Assembly (NCBI GenBank): GCA_039679385.1
Contig: JBDKVB010000026.1
Location: 1-34,722 of the forward strand
DNA length: 34,722 bases
Direction: 5' to 3'
Source of the DNA: Armatimonadia bacterium
Lineage (GTDB): Bacteria > Armatimonadota > Zipacnadia > Zipacnadales > JABUFB01
Of this stretch, positions 879 through 29,027 are shown piece by piece (within the stretch, counting starts at the first letter, position 1; each line of letters starts with the position of its first letter). The translations under genes and the position numbers were made by a program. The notes under the pieces are model-generated. The model worked only from the letters and a program-made list of their open reading frames with translations. It was not told where the DNA came from and did not search any database.

Positions 879-2138
879 CTAGAGCTGTACCTTGAAGACC
901 TGGCTGCACTCGTCCTGATAGGTGCCAAGATCGAAGCGGATTACAACGGTGTACTGGCCTGACGGCCCGGCTACTCGCCCGGAGTAGCTGCAACTGCCGC
1001 CTCACCCAAACTCAAGGGCGCCGGTGTGCACCAACTCACCCTTGGCGGAGTACACCTTCACCTTGCCGCCGGACTCACCCGTGCCGGAGAAGCCGGACAG
1101 CTTCTGCCCCCAGTTCGTACCCGGCGCCGCCGTCACCTCGATGCGGCCACCCTTGCTGACGGTGCACTCGGCGTTGGCCTGCATCCGGCCGCCGATCTTG
1201 CGTGCCTTCCCTACCGGGGAGGTCGCGGGGAAGTCCGCCAGGCTCAAGGACATCTCGCGACCGCCGCCCAGATCGACGGTTGCTGACCCGTACCTGCCTC
1301 CGCCCCTCTCAGGGTCCACAGCCATCACGAGAGTCCCGCTGGGACGGATGAACCACACTCGCCCGACGGTAGGCAGGTAGCCGTTCAGCATCGTGAAGGC
1401 TGCGGGCTTCCCACGGGCGTCAACGAAGTCGCAGGAGACCCTGGTGGTCTGCCCCGGCACCGGCGCCACTGTGAGCTTCGTCCACGTAGCGTCAGATGTC
1501 ACCTCGCGCAGCTCACCGGCGATACCAAGGTACTTGGAGTTGCCCGGCAGCTCACAGCTCTGGCGCTTGCCGTCGCCGTTCTCGTCGAGCCACAGGGACT
1601 CGTGACAGGGAGCCGCATAGACGTCACAAGAGCCGCTCTGTCGAGGCACCCGCGCTCGCACGGCAGCGGAAGTCGTCGCACGGAACTGCCCATAGACGCC
1701 GCCCTTCTGAAGGGTCAGCACCAGCCGCGCGTCCTGGTACACCTTGGGCGACTTCGGGCGGAACTCGAAGGTCTGGGCGGTCTTCTCAGTGCCCGACAGA
1801 AGCTTACCGGCGACCACCGGGTCGTCGTCGGTCTGCCCGTTACCGTTGGCATCGATCGCGAGGAGAGCCCTGGGCGCCTTGCCGCTTTGGGTCACCCAGA
1901 CTCGCACCTGGATTGCGCGCGCTGACCGGTAGAGGACACCCTCGAGTTCCCGAAGCTCAGACGGCTGGACGGCCGTCTCAGGTGGGCTCGCGTAGCCACA
2001 GCTTTCCTGCCACTCCTCGGCCAACTGGACCTTCTCGAGCGCGTACTCACCGGTCTTCAGCGGCCCGGTGCCACCTGCCGCCCAACCCGGCCAAGCCCAT
2101 AGACACAACGCCAGAAGAACAGTCCCCCGTGCTGTCAT
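879..2138 (-). CDS. Putative secreted selenoprotein with EFG-Sec-GGSC motif (in-frame UGA)
   Basis: I read this as a 419-residue secreted protein with a recoded UGA at 1002-1004 (residue 379). The start is the ATG at 2138, preceded by GGAGGTGA at 8 nt spacing. A signal peptide of about 21 residues (hydrophobic VLLALCLWAW, cleavage after PGWA) follows. Two calcium-loop-like segments occur, DANGNGQTDDD near residue 94 and DENGDGK near 184, between beta-rich stretches. The conventional stop follows GALEFG, but the frame continues for 40 sense codons to TAG at 879-881. It begins Gly-Gly-Ser-Cys and contains a beta-strand-like GQYTVVIRFDLG. The adjacent paralogue at 2206-3672 shows the same arrangement, and both have a stem-loop just after the UGA. 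Residue 379 with Cys383 would form a Sec-x-x-x-Cys pair. The function is unknown. If UGA is not recoded, the protein ends at 378 residues. TGA is an ordinary stop elsewhere in this window, for example at 4683 and 10066. Confidence 0.75.
961..1004 (-). promoter_or_regulatory. Candidate bacterial SECIS element after UGA, gene 879-2138
   Basis: Immediately 3' of the in-frame UGA, a perfect 7-bp stem GCTACTC/GAGTAGC (982-988 with 970-976) encloses the loop CGGGC. The loop starts 20 nt after the UGA. An outer helix, GGCGGC with GCCGTC (one G-U pair), could close the structure with an internal loop between. Position, stem length and a G within the first two loop bases fit what is known of bacterial SECIS hairpins. 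The second copy at 2343-2376 has the same spacing and nearly the same loop but different, compensated stem bases. Confidence 0.72.
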
Positions 2139-2205
2139 CCGACCCGTCACCTCCAACCCTCGTCATGGCCTTACCGTCAAGGTGCGCTTGTGTGTCGCTG
2201 GGAAC

Positions 2206-3672
2206 TCATTCCGGCGCCGACATCGGTTCCATCGCCCGCCGGTCTCCCACGGTGTAGCTGGTCTCGCCGACTACTGTCCCAGCATACTCCCCGGTCTCCC
2301 AGGTCGCCCTTATCCGCAGCCCGTCGCCGGTCTTGACCTTGGGGGCTCGCACGGAGCCCTGGCAGGAGCCGCCTCACCCAAACTCGGCGTTGCCCTGCCC
2401 GATGACCGTGCCCGCCTTGTCGAGGACCTCCAGCTTGACCTTTGCCGCCCCCGAAGCGCCCTGGGCCCCGGTAAAGAGATGGTCCTTCGGGGTAAGCGCC
2501 TGAGTGGACACGATCAGGTCCCAACTGCTCACGCTCGCGCTCGTCTGGGGGACGACTCCTGTGACAACCCCGCCAGGGCTTGGCCCTGCGGAGGGCGAGG
2601 CGTAGTCGACCTTTACCTCGACACGCAAGGGCCCGCCGAGAACCACTTCCGACTTCCCAGCGGGGATGTTGACCGCCTCCCGCGTCGAGAAACCCCACGC
2701 TGGCCCTTTCTCGCCAGCCGAAAGGGTGTAGCTGAGGTCCACCTTGTCCGGCGGCCCGTCATAGCGCTCTGTTGCCCCGGTACGATAGGAGAGGAGGTCC
2801 TCGCTATGCAGCAGCAAGTCCACAGGGGTCACGCGCCTGCCTCTGCCGTCGGTGCCGATCAGCGTCGCCTCTGCACGCGGCCCGGTGTAGGGCGTGAAGG
2901 TGAGTTCGGTGCCGTCGGCCACCATCGCTGTTGTGTACCATCTGCCGTCCAGCTCACGGTACTTCAGGAGCGGCCAGACTTCGGGGCCGAGGTCCACTTT
3001 CCCATCGTTGTTGGTGTCGGTCCAGAGCATGTCGCCCTGGCTGCGCGGTGTCAGGCCGAAGAGGGCGTCGCCTCCCCCATCCATGACAGCAATCGCCACC
3101 GACTTGTCACCCAGCCTTATCCGCCCCCGCATGCAGGTCTGGGGATCGAGCAGGACGTACGGTCTGGCCTCCGCGGTGCGCTGGCTCGTAACGTAGGTGA
3201 TGAACTTGAGCTGGAAGCGGTAGGGACGCTCGAAGGCGGAGCCATCTTCGCGCCGATAGGTCACAGGCTGGACGATCGTCGGGGTCACGGACATCCCCGT
3301 TCTGGTCGTCCCCCGCATCTCCGGCTCAGCAGGGAAGGCCGCCCACCCGTCAGGCGGCCGGCCGCCTTCTGTGTCGAGGTAGACCGTATACACGGGGCGC
3401 TTGTTAGCGTCGAGACCGGTGCGGACGATGGCGAGGGACAGGGGCTTGCCGTCACCCAGGCGGAACCCACCATACCATACGTACTTGCCCCAGGAGGCCG
3501 GTGCCTTCGCGAGGCCCGCCGGGGCCTCTGCGCTAAGTGCGACAGGGGCGTAACCGTACCCGTAACCTCCCACCACCAGTGCCCCGCTCATGGAGCAGGT
3601 GATGACCCCGGGCGGTTCGTCAGCCTGGCAACCTAACACCGGCAACAGCAGCACCCCGACCAGCATCAGCAC
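2206..3672 (-). CDS. Putative selenoprotein lipoprotein with EFG-Sec-GGSC motif (in-frame UGA)
   Basis: This is a paralogue of the downstream gene at 879-2138, read as 488 residues with a recoded UGA at 2374-2376 (residue 433). The N-terminus is hydrophobic and ends in the lipobox VLGC, so the mature protein is probably lipid-anchored outside the cytoplasm. The start is uncertain: the GTG at 3672 has GAGG at 8 nt spacing, while the ATG at 3666 and the GTG at 3681 are alternatives. Residues near 218 contain the calcium-loop-like DTNNDGKVD. The region before the UGA (AKVKLEVLDKAGTVIG..AEFG) aligns with KVKVYSAKGELVHTG..LEFG of the neighbour. After the UGA, 55 codons remain open, starting Gly-Gly-Ser-Cys, and end at TGA 2206-2208. 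The UGA context GAGTTTGGGTGAGGCGGC is identical over 18 nt in both genes, while the flanks have diverged. Function unknown; a redox role for Sec433 and Cys437 is inference. Confidence 0.75.
2343..2376 (-). promoter_or_regulatory. Candidate bacterial SECIS element after UGA, gene 2206-3672
   Basis: A perfect 6-bp stem GGGCTC/GAGCCC (2354-2359 with 2343-2348) encloses the loop CGTGC. The loop begins 20 nt after the UGA, exactly as in the copy at 961-1004. The core CTC-CGKGC-GAG is shared, while the lower stem pairs differ yet still pair. A 3-bp lower helix (CCT/AGG) is possible below it. Confidence 0.7.
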
Positions 3673-6033: not shown

Positions 6034-9000
6034 CTACTGCCACGGTCCGGGGATGATCGTGAAGGGCACGCTGTACTGGGCCAGACGCCCCTGGCTGCCC
6101 AGGAGTTCCGTCCGCAGGGAGTAGCTGCCCGCAGGAAGGTCCGCCGTGCCCACGTTCATGAACAGCGAGGTGCCCTCCAGGTCCTTCACCGTGGTCTCCT
6201 GCAGCGTCTTGCCGCCGGAGAGGACCGTGAGCTTGAGGCTGGAGGTCCGCTGGAGTCTGCGCCCCAAGTTGAGGCTCCCGGTGAGGTCAAAACCAGGCCA
6301 GCCTGCGAGCAACTCGACGCGTGGCGAGGATAGCTCCAGGGGAGTGCCGAGCGACGCCCGCAAGGGGATCACCAGCGGGGCGTCGGCGATCGGTGTGACC
6401 CGGTCGCGCAGGCTCTGCGAGTCGCTGCGGGTGAGACGGCGACCCGTAGCAGGCTCCTGCCGGGCGTCGTTCTCGCTGATCCAGCGGCTCAGCGGCAGCA
6501 GCTCGAGCAGCACCTGTGCAGTCCCCTGGCGCGAGAGTTCGTAGGGGACCTCGATCTGGGTCGTTCCGGCGCCCAGGAGGTATCTTGCCGAGGGCTGAGA
6601 GCCCGAATCTCGCCCGGCGAGGTAGGCCCGCATCGCTACCTCGGCCACAAGTCCGGGGTTCGCCAGCGTCACCAGGAGACGGTTGTCGCCCCAGGCTGCC
6701 GGGCTCTGCTGAACTGCGACCGGAGTCAGTGGCGAGGGGTTCATGAGGAGCTTCCCGAAGCGACCGGGTACGTTGAACCCTCGGAGGGTCGGTGACCAGC
6801 ACCCATACTCGACCCCGGAGGGTATCCTCCGCGTGCGGTTGAGATTCACACCCCACACGCTGGAGGACGGGCCCAGTTCGGATAGTGGGATGGCCATCTC
6901 CACGCACCAGCCCTCGGCGCAAGGGGCTGCAGCGGCCTGCCAGCGAGGGTTCCAGTTGACGTCCTCGACCTTGTCGGCCGGCTCGCGCTGCTGAGCAGCA
7001 GGATCGGCGCTGCGGAAGGCATGTCGGCTGTCGCGGCGGGTCCCGAGGCTGTTCACCATGAAGTGCAGATAGGTCTGCTGGTCGCAGTCGGGGTCGAGGA
7101 AGACCTCGACCGAGTCGTCAGACCACACCGGGCCGTCGTGGTCCTTCACGGTGGCCTGCAGCGACTTCATCTCGTCTTCCCAGCACCTGAAGGCCACGTA
7201 GAGGTTGGCTGCATCGCGACCGATCCAGGCCTGCGTTCGGTGCTTGTTGGTGGAGCCGTCCTGCCCCACGAGGTCGCTGATCTGGAAGGCCTTGTCCCAG
7301 GCCCCGTCAAGCTTGCCGTCGATGACGGGAAGGGTCGACAGAAACGGAGCCTGTCCGACCGGCAGGGCAGGCTGGTAGGCCTCTTCCGCGCCGGACACTC
7401 GGGTCTCGATCTGCGGCTGAGGAGGGGTCTTGGAGGAGGGCATCGGGGCCGGGATCTGCGCCGGTCGCCCACTAAGCATTTCGCCGCAGTCCAGCAGGCG
7501 CGAGGCGATCTTCCAGCGTGCGACCTGGGCCTGGGCGCTCGTCAGCGGGCCATACTGCACTCGCGTGCCCTTCGGCCCGTCCACATGGCCGTCGATCCAG
7601 GGGAGGCCCTGCAGGATCGTCTCGAGTTCGCGGTCGGAACGCTCGGCGAGGGCCGTGGCAGCGGGCTTCCCGAGCTTGCGAATGTCCTTAGCCGCCATGC
7701 GCAGCGTACTCGCGTAGCGCAGATCGTCGACGCCCTCCCGGATGCCCTCCCACTGCAAGGTGGGCACCAGGGGCGGCCTACCGTCCGGTGAGGGATACGT
7801 GATGCAGGCGTCCTTGGGCTCGCGGCCGGTGCCGTCGAAGTCGTCATAGGGCTTCTGGTTGGGGCGCTGGAAGGTCCAGGCCCAGGCTCCGTCCGCGCCG
7901 GTCTTGTCAAGCAGGAAGCCGCTGTAGTGCCGGTTCACGGCCATGTTGCCTTCCTGGCCGGTGTAGCAGCCGCTTCCGTACCACCAGTAGGTGGCCTTCG
8001 CCGCCTCGCAGTCATCGCGGCGAGCCCGGGCATCCTCCGCCGAACCGGCACAGAAGCCGATCCCGTAGCAGCGGACGTCCAGAAAGGGCGACAACACTTC
8101 ATTTGTGAACTTCACGTCGGCGGTGGTGAAGGTGCGGAACCCGGCTTCGTGCAGGATCCGCAGCGTCTGGGCCGCTTCACCTTCGGTAGCGGGGTGTCCA
8201 CCGGGCTCGTCGACCGTGTGATAGACGAACTCGGGCCATCCCCGAGCTTTGCGCAGGTCCTCGATCTGCCGCACGACCTCTACGAGCATGCGCGAGAACT
8301 CAGGACCATAGTCGTCGGCCGACTGGCCCAGCAGCTTGTGCACGAGGCTGGTGATGCCCTGACAACTGGCGACCACGGGACCGCCCAGACCACCCAGCTT
8401 GTACAGGTCCATGTAGCGCTCGAAGCGGCTCATGTCGGACTTCAGCTTGCCCTCCACCAGGGTGAAGGTGCTGTGGCGCAGCGGGTACATCATGGCGCAG
8501 GTGATGCCGTGGTCGCGCCAGTCGCGGACCTCCTTCAGTATCTCGCCTTCAGAGTAGGTCTCCCAGCGCCCTGTATCCGGCCACAGACCCCAGACCTTGT
8601 TCGCCGGAGCCAGGAGTCGCAGTGGAAGGACGCGCAGCCTGAAGGGCACCAGCGCTGTCTGGTCGTCTGCCACGACGCGAACATACCCCTCATATAGGCC
8701 CGGCAGGGCCGCTTCGGGTACTCTCACGGTTACCCAGAACTGCTGGAGAGCCCCTGCGGGAAGAGACAGGTTGGCGGGCTGCTCCAGAAGCTCGGGAATC
8801 TCGTAGTACCTCTTGGTGGCCCAGGAGGTGCGCTGCTTCCAGATGCGCACGGCACGGACGTCGACCACACTGGCCGGCAAGGAGGCCTTTGACGGGCCGA
8901 TGAACTGCCCGGCCTGGACGCTGATTCGACTCAGTGCGCGAGTGGTGTAGATGCCGAAGGTCGCCGGCTCGATCTCTCCCTGTGATGCGAAGGCCTGCAT

Positions 9001-26030: not shown

Positions 26031-29027
26031 CTATCCTGCAGGCGGCGGCACGTTCTGCAGGTCCGCGGCAGGTGGTGCCTCTTGCGGAAGACTCAGGCGC
26101 AGGCCCTCGGGGCCGACATAGAGCAACTGGCGTCTCCCGACCGCCTGACTATCGAGCACGATCTTCCGCGGACTCGTCAGACCCTCGTCGACCGCCTTGA
26201 GATGCAGGCGGATTCGCTCGACCTGCGGCCCGCTTCGGTAGGCTTGCTCGCGAAAGGTGAAGCGAGTTGCATCGCCGACAGCCCGGCGCTCGCGGTTGAC
26301 GGCATAGGCGGCGGCGTCAAGACGCTGCTTCGCAGACTCGCCCTGACCAAGGAGCAACTGCTCGCCGGCGTAGGCCTCGGCCTCGTTGATCTTGCGCTGC
26401 TTCTGTTCGGCCTCGCTCGAGACCGACCGGTAGGCATCCACGACCTCCACCGGCGGATGGACATCCTGTAAGGCCACGCGGACGATTCGCAGGCCGCTCC
26501 CGTAGTGATCGGCGAGAGTCTGGGCCTCCTGCAGGATTGCCTCTTCGAGTCGAGCACGACCACTCACCAGGAGGTCGTCCGCCGGCGCGCCGTTCACTGC
26601 ACAGCGGACTGCATGCTCACAGATCGCCCGGACCAGAACCGGTCCTGAGGTCAAGGTCAGGGCATAGCGCACCGGGTCCGCAACCTGGTAATGGACCACG
26701 GCCGTCACGTCCACAAGGTTGGCGTCGCCGCTCACCATGATCGACTCGGCGGGAACGGCCCGGTAGCTCTTGGAGCGGTGCTGGGTGTTCCACTCGTAAG
26801 CTGCCGACTGTGCAAGGCCGACGCCGCCACTGGACCGGAAGCCAATCTCGAGGGCACGCACGCGGCTGGTGGCTACCGCCGTCACTCGTCCGATCGGCCA
26901 GGGTGGCGAGTAGCGTAGACCCGGTTGAGCGGTGCCCAGATACCGGCCCAGCACTCGAACCACGCCCACATCGCCCGGCCCAATCTGGTACGCACCGGAG
27001 GCCACCCACAGCAGAAGGAGCCCACCGACCAGCACGCGACGATCCGCCTGCCAGACTCGCCGCAGCAGCGCAGCAAGCGCTCGGCGCTTTGGCAAGGCCG
27101 GAAGCCCGACATACTCCCGCAGATTCCGGAGCGCTTGGCCGCCGGTTCTCGCAGCCCGCTTCCCGAGCTGTCGCGGCGATCCTAGCAGTCGCAGCGAGTT
27201 GCTGATCACCGCCAGCGACCCAATCTGGTGGATCACGGCGGCGACCACCGGCGTAACCTTGCCCCAGCCGGCAAGGGCAACGCCGACGCCGTTGAAGGCC
27301 AGGGCGAACCAGCGGATGTTCTCGTCAATCGTCTGCAGCGCCCGGCGGCTGATCCTCAGGAGTGGCTCCAGGCGCGTAAGGTCGTCGGTCATGAGGACGA
27401 CGTCGGCGGCTTCGGCAGCGAGGTCGGTGCCAATGTCGCCCATCGCCACACCCACCTGTGCCGCCGCCAGGGCCGGTGCATCGTTGACGCCGTCGCCGAC
27501 CATCAGCACTCGCAGCCCCTCGGCCTGCAGGTCACGAATCCGCTCGGACTTCTCACGGGGAAGCAGCCCCGCATACACCTCGTTGATGCCGACCCGGTTC
27601 CCAAGATTGCGCGCAGCGTTCTCGTTGTCACCCGTCAGTATCACAATCCGACGCACTCCGGCCTCGCGCAGGGAAGCGACGGCTGCCGCTGCGTGCTCAC
27701 GTACCTGGTCGACTACTGACAGCAAGCCCACGACCTCAGTGTCGACGCCAACCAGCACCAGCGTTTGCCCGGCAGCGTGGAGACCTTCGACCTCCTGTAA
27801 GGCCTGGGCCGAGAGCGCAATCCCGCACTCCTCCAGAAGCTCCCGGCGGCCGACAGTCACTCGGCGTCCCTTGACGGTCGCCCTCACGCCAAGCCCCGGA
27901 AGCGCCTCGAAGTCCTCGGGTACGACAACGGGCAAGCCTCTCTGGCGCGCTTCGGTCTCGATGAGCCGACCGATGACATGCTCGGAGCGCGACTCGGCCG
28001 CAGCGGCAAGCTGGAGCACCTCTTCCTCAGGCAAGCCCAGGCCAACCACTTCGCCCACTCTCGGCTGCCCAAGGGTCAGGGTGCCGGTCTTGTCGAAGAC
28101 CACGCAGTCGATGGCGCCGCAGGCCTCCAGCGCCACGCCGCTCTTGACCAGGACGCCATCCCGGGCCAGTCGCCCGAGGGCCGCCACGACCGCCGTGGGG
28201 ACCGCCAGCACAAGCGAGCACGGACAGGCCACAACCAGCACCGAGATCGCGCTGACCTTGTTCTTGGTGATCAGGAACACGGCGAGGGCGATCGCCAGCA
28301 CGACCGGCACGAAGTACACCGCATAGCGATCGGCCCGGCGCTGCACCGGCGCTTCCTGCTCCTCAATCTGCTCCATGAGGCGGATGATCCGCGCCAGCGT
28401 GGTGTCTTCGCCGACCTTGCTCGCCCGGACTTCCAGCGCACCGGTCAGGTTGACGGTGCCGGTGAGGACCTCCTGCCCCGGCGTCTTCGCGACGGGGATC
28501 GGTTCACCCGTGAAGGCGCTCTCATCGACATCCGAGGCGCCCTCGACCACTTCGCCGTCCACCGGGAGACGCTCACCGGGGCGCACAATGACCAGCGTGC
28601 CGACGCAGACTTCCTCGACCGGGACCTCGCGCTCCTCGCCATCGACACGAACCCGCGCACGCCGAGGCATGACCGAGATGAGTCGGCGCAGGTCTGCCTG
28701 AGTGCGGCTGGAGGTGAACTCCTCCAGCGCCTCACCAATCAGCATGATCAGGATGACTTCGGCGGCGGCGAGGTACTGCCCGATGGACAAGGCCGCCAGT
28801 GAGGCGATAGCGACCGGCAGATCGCCCTTGATCTGGAACCGCAGGAGGTTCTCGACGGCGCCGAGGAAGATGCGCCAGCCGCCGAAGGCGACGATCAGGA
28901 CTGAGAGGTCCAGACCGCCGATCGACTTCCACGGCCCGAGCCAGCGCAGGAGCACCAGCACCGCGACGACGGCCGGGAACACAAAGGCCTTCCAGGGAGC
29001 GTGGCGCTCAGGTTCGTGCAAATCCAA
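26031..29027 (-). CDS. Heavy-metal P-type ATPase fused to an HflK-like SPFH domain
   Basis: One uninterrupted frame of up to 998 residues joins two normally separate proteins. Residues 1 to about 620 are a P1B-type metal ATPase: membrane segments, the actuator-domain FTGEP, the transmembrane metal site CPC (VACPCSLVLAVPT, about 266), the phosphorylation site DKTGTL (about 309), TGDNENAA and GDGVNDAPAL (about 512). The nucleotide-domain SEHP motif reads SEHVIG, so the usual Pro is Val, and there is no N-terminal HMA domain. After a basic linker, a membrane segment at about 663-680 leads into an SPFH domain (IGPGDVGVVRVLGRYLG..PGLRYSPPWPIG) and a coiled coil to the end. The TTG at 29027 is the longest start and has a poor ribosome site; the GTG at 28982 has GGAAGG 5 nt upstream and is a good alternative. 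It heads the HflC/HflK genes. Confidence 0.9.
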   Translation of the reverse strand: MDLHEPERHAPWKAFVFPAVVAVLVLLRWLGPWKSIGGLDLSVLIVAFGGWRIFLGAVENLLRFQIKGDLPVAIASLAALSIGQYLAAAEVILIMLIGEALEEFTSSRTQADLRRLISVMPRRARVRVDGEEREVPVEEVCVGTLVIVRPGERLPVDGEVVEGASDVDESAFTGEPIPVAKTPGQEVLTGTVNLTGALEVRASKVGEDTTLARIIRLMEQIEEQEAPVQRRADRYAVYFVPVVLAIALAVFLITKNKVSAISVLVVACPCSLVLAVPTAVVAALGRLARDGVLVKSGVALEACGAIDCVVFDKTGTLTLGQPRVGEVVGLGLPEEEVLQLAAAAESRSEHVIGRLIETEARQRGLPVVVPEDFEALPGLGVRATVKGRRVTVGRRELLEECGIALSAQALQEVEGLHAAGQTLVLVGVDTEVVGLLSVVDQVREHAAAAVASLREAGVRRIVILTGDNENAARNLGNRVGINEVYAGLLPREKSERIRDLQAEGLRVLMVGDGVNDAPALAAAQVGVAMGDIGTDLAAEAADVVLMTDDLTRLEPLLRISRRALQTIDENIRWFALAFNGVGVALAGWGKVTPVVAAVIHQIGSLAVISNSLRLLGSPRQLGKRAARTGGQALRNLREYVGLPALPKRRALAALLRRVWQADRRVLVGGLLLLWVASGAYQIGPGDVGVVRVLGRYLGTAQPGLRYSPPWPIGRVTAVATSRVRALEIGFRSSGGVGLAQSAAYEWNTQHRSKSYRAVPAESIMVSGDANLVDVTAVVHYQVADPVRYALTLTSGPVLVRAICEHAVRCAVNGAPADDLLVSGRARLEEAILQEAQTLADHYGSGLRIVRVALQDVHPPVEVVDAYRSVSSEAEQKQRKINEAEAYAGEQLLLGQGESAKQRLDAAAYAVNRERRAVGDATRFTFREQAYRSGPQVERIRLHLKAVDEGLTSPRKIVLDSQAVGRRQLLYVGPEGLRLSLPQEAPPAADLQNVPPPAG

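Follow-up and report, generated by a model that had tools for sequence, protein, structure and literature searches.

Two neighbouring genes of an Armatimonadia bacterium each contain an in-frame TGA beyond which the reading frame stays open. We asked whether these codons end the two proteins or encode selenocysteine (Sec) and, if Sec is inserted, what kind of proteins would carry it. The window analysed is the whole 34,722-nucleotide stretch of contig JBDKVB010000026.1 (C26), part of a 5.6-Mb draft genome that is 97% complete. The best explanation as a whole, held with good confidence, is that the genes encode extracytoplasmic Sec-decoded proteins with a proposed redox centre.

Two adjacent genes with in-frame TGA codons

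Gene A (positions 879–2138, minus strand) would encode a secreted selenoprotein of 419 amino acids, running from an ATG at 2138 (alternative TTG at 2156) to a TAG at 881–879. Its predicted Sec codon is the TGA at 1002–1004, which is aligned with TGA or Cys in homologues. Gene B (2206–3672, minus strand), a putative lipoprotein-type selenoprotein, extends from a GTG at 3672 (alternative ATG at 3666) to a TGA at 2208–2206, and its Sec-encoding TGA was likewise assigned from aligned homologues (2374–2376, minus strand). Both start codons were set by eye from ribosome-binding-like sequences, such as the GGAGG that precedes the ATG of gene A. As the initial annotation had described, the internal TGA follows Glu-Phe-Gly in both genes, the frame remains open for 40 sense codons in gene A and 55 codons in gene B, and the continuation begins with Gly-Gly-Ser-Cys, giving the reading E-F-G-U-G-G-S-C at both sites. 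The identical 18-nucleotide context that it had pointed out, GAGTTTGGGTGAGGCGGC, is present in exactly two copies in the window, compared with 0.08 matches expected in shuffles even when three mismatches are tolerated, and a degenerate form occurs at genes A and B alone across the 5.6-Mb genome. TGA terminates 6 of the 22 other genes in the window, and is therefore also a genuine stop here, as had been proposed. Together with the homologues, Sec machinery and hairpin described below, these features indicate that the internal TGA of both genes almost certainly encodes Sec.

The N terminus of the gene A product, MTARGTVLLALCLWAWPGWAA, is signal-peptide-like, and the gene B product carries a lipobox (LLLPVLGC, with a VLGC core); both assignments were made by reading the sequence and agree with the signal peptide and lipobox noted earlier. 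An extracytoplasmic location is very probable for both. The genes are separated by 67 nucleotides, a gap that makes co-transcription likely. The earlier description of the two proteins as paralogues holds for the C-terminal Sec domain, which spans 882–1190 in gene A (minus strand; profile match, AlphaFold2 model and fold comparison) and 2233–2565 in gene B (minus strand; profile match): the sole significant local match between the proteins covers the Sec motif (E = 7e-5). It does not extend further, as the two are scarcely similar beyond that domain. Elsewhere in the window, a single ORF (26031–29027) fuses a P-type (E1-E2) ATPase to an SPFH/Band 7 domain, and the two ORFs that follow it appear Band 7-like by eye.

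Homologues and relation to known families

A search with the gene A protein returned no relative within its own taxonomic family (four genomes), and a profile of the C-terminal domain was required to detect homologues. A two-sequence profile built from the C-terminal domains of both proteins matched 15 of 291 Armatimonadota genomes, mostly with one TGA within the match. These TGAs fall in the same column, with the consensus [FY]-G-U-G-G-[ST]-C-x-Y-S-x-R-[VI]-P. A DNA-pattern scan of 84,980 species returned 23 stretches from Armatimonadota, Phycisphaerae and other Planctomycetota, Verrucomicrobia and Sumerlaeota, all 23 of which were confirmed with a profile made of Armatimonadota sequences only; the members from the other phyla thus constitute an independent check. 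With a larger profile, UGA forms were detected in 26 of the 291 Armatimonadota genomes and, by stop count, in 44 of 392 Planctomycetota genomes, for which 31 matches were read. Nearly all matches in these 291 and 392 genomes contain a single TGA, in the same column wherever it was read. Among viral contigs, 75 pattern matches were obtained and none was confirmed, and the pattern was not found in plasmids. Four matches (L033, L035, L115 and L123) were discarded as false on reading.

At least 91 UGA-bearing homologues from Armatimonadota, Planctomycetota, Verrucomicrobiota and Sumerlaeota were read residue by residue. Gly occupies position +1 in 88 of the 91, and the tail after Sec measures 36–55 residues in 35 of 39 members. 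Cys is present at +4 in 63 of the 91 and anywhere from +3 to +6 in 74, the real share being lower since part of the set was picked with a pattern that requires Cys. The Sec-x-x-x-Cys site put forward initially is therefore common, but it is not invariant: about one-fifth of members lack a Cys anywhere from +3 to +6. The constant of the family is a Sec between glycines, not Sec-x-x-x-Cys. Few forms lack UGA: G280 has Cys at the site, G232 has Ser and G003 has Arg, alongside a handful of divergent or uncertain cases; in the Cys form L022, the tail is in frame with a Cys at the Sec site. Homologues thus continue past this position with UGA kept or Cys aligned, and none ending in TAA or TAG at the site was seen. 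Conservation over the full length was dropped as evidence, as the N-terminal halves are too diverse. The Phycisphaerales MAG Emb289P4bin17 (G295) contains 12 UGA members in 4.6 Mb, an unusually strong expansion for a single family of selenoproteins.

The initial annotation recognised no described family with this motif, and the comparisons bear this out. None of the 119 prokaryotic selenoprotein families or subfamilies catalogued in 2026 (PMC13188914, Table 1) matches. Like genes A and B, the catalogued selenoproteins have an in-frame UGA with a bacterial SECIS (bSECIS) element directly downstream, depend on SelB and SelC, and commonly have a nearby Cys, but none has a G-U-G-G-x-C motif on an Ig/macroglobulin-like domain (PMC13188914). 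No NCBIfam selenoprotein family (release 20) scored over its cut-off, with sub-cut-off matches only; the UGSC protein (NF041046) and hypothetical protein DG (NF049953, GUxG) contain similar strings and are not matched by family members. A match to OS_HP2 (E = 0.12) was not repeated with 20 full-length proteins. No Pfam family covers the Sec-domain proteins, and sequence searches of the PDB and PHROGs gave no match. Weak matches to MG2 (PF01835) were obtained for 6 of 23 C-terminal domains (best E = 4.5e-6), and none for the two window proteins. No paper on the family was found among the main texts of openly accessible papers; the main text of a selenoprotein study of three planctomycetes describes other families. 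The proteins belong to a large and apparently undescribed selenoprotein family, secreted or anchored in the membrane, with members in at least four phyla. The newest selenoprotein families all had Cys homologues, and the present family may have been overlooked because current finders rely largely on such homologues, of which it has few.

Sec machinery and the bSECIS hairpin

All four genes of the Sec machinery (selA, selB, selC and selD) that the initial annotation had suggested looking for were found in the genome: SelA (555 bits), SelB (357 bits), a tRNA-Sec with anticodon TCA (73 bits) and SelD, which adjoins selC. The genome's own selD, directly upstream of selC (L047, G000:C74, about 7154–8220, minus strand), likewise carries an in-frame TGA, in the catalytic loop CAG-U-AAKL; read through, its upstream frame gives LTQTSSCAG-U-AAKLGAAALSQVL. 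This TGA lies at the catalytic site typical of SelD, and the reading through it serves as an internal control.

SelB scores over the cut-off in 25 of the 26 Armatimonadota genomes with UGA forms versus 141 of 291 overall (p = 6e-8), and in 39 of the 44 Planctomycetota genomes with UGA forms versus 235 of 392 overall, one of them added later (p = 1e-5), both p-values being inflated by relatedness. All 11 MAGs reached through the pattern scan contain SelB. UGA forms with SelB not detected are confined to G232 in Armatimonadota and to G309, G432, G572, G606 and G614 in Planctomycetota; as most of the genomes are draft assemblies and a cut-off of E = 1e-62 applied in the second search, SelB fragments may have been missed.

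A hairpin follows the internal TGA in both genes. In gene A (970–988, minus strand) it comprises GCTACTC-CGGGC-GAGTAGC, with a stem of 7 bp, and in gene B (2343–2359, minus strand) GGGCTC-CGTGC-GAGCCC, with a stem of 6 bp; both have an apical loop of 5 nt (CGGGC and CGTGC) and a spacing of 20 nt. The minimum free energies (MFE) over 35 nt are −10.9 and −17.4 kcal/mol, respectively. Both hairpins agree with the published bSECIS model, which describes an apical loop of 3–9 nt with an early G, a stem of 4–16 bp, a distance of 16–37 nt from the UGA and an MFE of at most −7.5. Across 19 Armatimonadota genes, the helix pairs positions 17–23 with 29–35 (T of TGA being 1). Pairing in these genes reaches 89.5% versus 75.4% in shuffles, with 0 of 500 shuffles attaining the observed values on any measure, and changes on both sides occur in five of the seven helix pairs. 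In 39 genes, 5.79 of the six inner pairs are formed on average versus 3.44 in synonymous-codon shuffles, which preserve both the protein sequence and the codon usage of the gene, and all six are perfect in 36 of the 39; as these genes are related, they are not combined into a joint p-value. Wobble choices keep the pair, with Tyr TAC accompanying Val GTA and TAT accompanying Ile ATA. The compensatory changes exceed the needs of the protein.

In 48 sequences from the other phyla, examined in a fixed register, pairing is 75% versus 61% in shuffles and all six pairs form in 28; in the remaining sequences, insertions and shifts of the register weaken it. The Cys homologue in G280, a genome in which SelB was not detected, retains five hairpin pairs with the sixth broken, as would be expected after a recent Sec-to-Cys change. 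The z-score of the MFE was rejected as SECIS evidence (mean z about −0.1 versus synonymous shuffles; z = 0.18 for gene A, where the hairpin region as a whole is of ordinary stability). The SECIS evidence is positional and comparative, and only pairing at the fixed position is informative.

Fold, genomic neighbourhood and possible roles

In the AlphaFold2 model of the long form (gene A), the C-terminal domain is all-beta, with a pLDDT of about 82–96 over most of it, and Sec lies in a loop between the strands 351–359 and 365–370. A short form is modelled with two helices at its N terminus plus two beta domains. Fold comparison indicates an Ig/macroglobulin-like sandwich (Z up to 10.6 and 8.4, middling values that are taken for broad fold class only), and the fold as modelled implies no enzyme active site. 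The models align to domains of complement, alpha-2-macroglobulin and adhesins (Z of 7–10.6). However, no thioester or multi-MG array as in the alpha-2-macroglobulins is seen here, and the glycine loop with its Sec is peculiar to the family. Unlike thioredoxin-fold selenoproteins with CxxU or UxxC, the family has U-G-G-x-C or no Cys, on a modelled all-beta sandwich. The domain is carried either by long proteins that have DxNxDG loops and are secreted or of the lipoprotein type, such as the products of genes A and B, whose loops are putative calcium-binding sites, or by short membrane-anchored proteins, which are encoded in the selA-selD-selB-selC locus. One protein (L081, 3385–5286) continues for 185 residues beyond Sec, into a C-terminal region of the H-X9-DG type.

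In 17 genomes of two phyla, sel genes are present on the contig of a family member, mostly within about 10 kb: nine of Armatimonadota (G196, G199, G231, G239, G247, G257, G258, G267 and G271) and eight of Planctomycetota (G294, G295, G296, G332, G363, G585, G588 and G687). The typical order, with variations, is [polyferredoxin]-[Sec protein]-selA-selD-selB-selC, and in G295 tRNA-Sec is the neighbour of a family member. Ten of the sel-linked loci contain a NapH-like membrane polyferredoxin (Fer4_5, PF12801). Such genes lie, for example, in L074 (11442–12287), L079 (2303–3097), L126 (10911–11816) and L128 (5792–6688), and further ones in L168, L170, L171 and L174. In other bacteria, formate dehydrogenase is encoded beside selAB (PMC4807772), likewise a selenoprotein next to the Sec machinery; the partner here differs in being a secreted or membrane-anchored beta-sandwich with no recognised enzyme domain.

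On the comparative evidence, SelB and tRNA-Sec decode UGA as Sec under the direction of the hairpin at positions 17–35 (U of UGA being 1), placing Sec in a glycine-rich [FY]-G-U-G-G-x-(C) loop that joins two strands of the C-terminal beta-sandwich. Its most likely role would be in redox chemistry at the cell surface or in the periplasm, with the selenol as reactive centre: a substrate would oxidise Sec, the +4 Cys, where there is one, would act as resolving residue by forming a selenenylsulfide with it, and membrane electron carriers, such as the polyferredoxin beside the short forms, would re-reduce Sec. The chances of a redox role are about even, given the one-fifth of members with no nearby Cys and the lack of a catalytic fold; the polyferredoxin, moreover, might go with the sel locus and not with the Sec proteins.

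The principal alternative is that Sec serves as a ligand of soft metals or metalloids (for example Hg, Cu or As), or in the capture or delivery of selenium, instead of catalytic redox, with the members beside selA-selD-selB acting in selenium supply or detoxification. Their linkage with selD and other sel genes speaks for it, as do the HGD-D and BadF-type genes that share these loci and the review's listing of SaoB and SaoC, recent selenoproteins, as proposed metal ligands. However, no His, Asp or second Cys is constant beside Sec in all members, and genes A and B, both of the long form, do not lie near sel genes; we consider this alternative rather unlikely. That the proteins instead end at the TGA, with the downstream conservation reflecting a regulatory RNA hairpin only, would accord with the use of TGA as an ordinary stop by other genes in the window. 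It is nevertheless highly improbable, since the tail shows conservation at the protein level in different phyla, completes the beta-sandwich in the models and is in frame with Cys in L022, and since the presence of SelB tracks the UGA forms. Reassignment of UGA to another amino acid, leaky read-through, sequencing errors or pseudogenes would explain the open frame and nothing further that was found, and are scarcely credible given that UGA ends ordinary genes, that one identical site recurs in dozens of genomes, and that tRNA-Sec, SelA, SelB and SelD, a hairpin at SECIS spacing and a Cys homologue at the site are all present; a changed code had been judged unlikely from the outset.

Decoding as Sec would mean that automatic annotation cuts a large selenoprotein family at the TGA. 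It would also mean that a family whose fold is unlike that of the thioredoxin-like majority of selenoproteins is concealed, by the rarity of its Cys forms, from any method that relies on homologues with Cys. The linkage to the sel locus suggests that this is a principal selenoprotein of these little-studied phyla, and what maintains the Sec trait there becomes a testable question. Tentatively, the family may represent an ancient redox module on an Ig-like scaffold that almost always uses Sec in preference to Cys, has been inherited together with the Sec locus in several phyla and is coupled to a membrane polyferredoxin. If so, it would be a main reason why these bacteria retain the Sec trait, a part said to be played elsewhere by formate dehydrogenase.

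Two further features of the sel-linked loci were observed. In most of them, SelD is a fusion of a Cys-rich N terminus (CICNP..CPC..), SelD and a CMD/AhpD-like C terminus (PF02627), as in L072 (5223–6830), L074 (6468–8084), L126 (9058–10689) and L055 (5638–7233). Genes for HGD-D (2-hydroxyglutaryl-CoA dehydratase D-like, PF06050) and BadF-type ATPases are frequent beside selB or selD in two phyla, including those in L074 (962–3191), L126 (6625–8631), L130 (6189–8333) and L171 (7340–8464).
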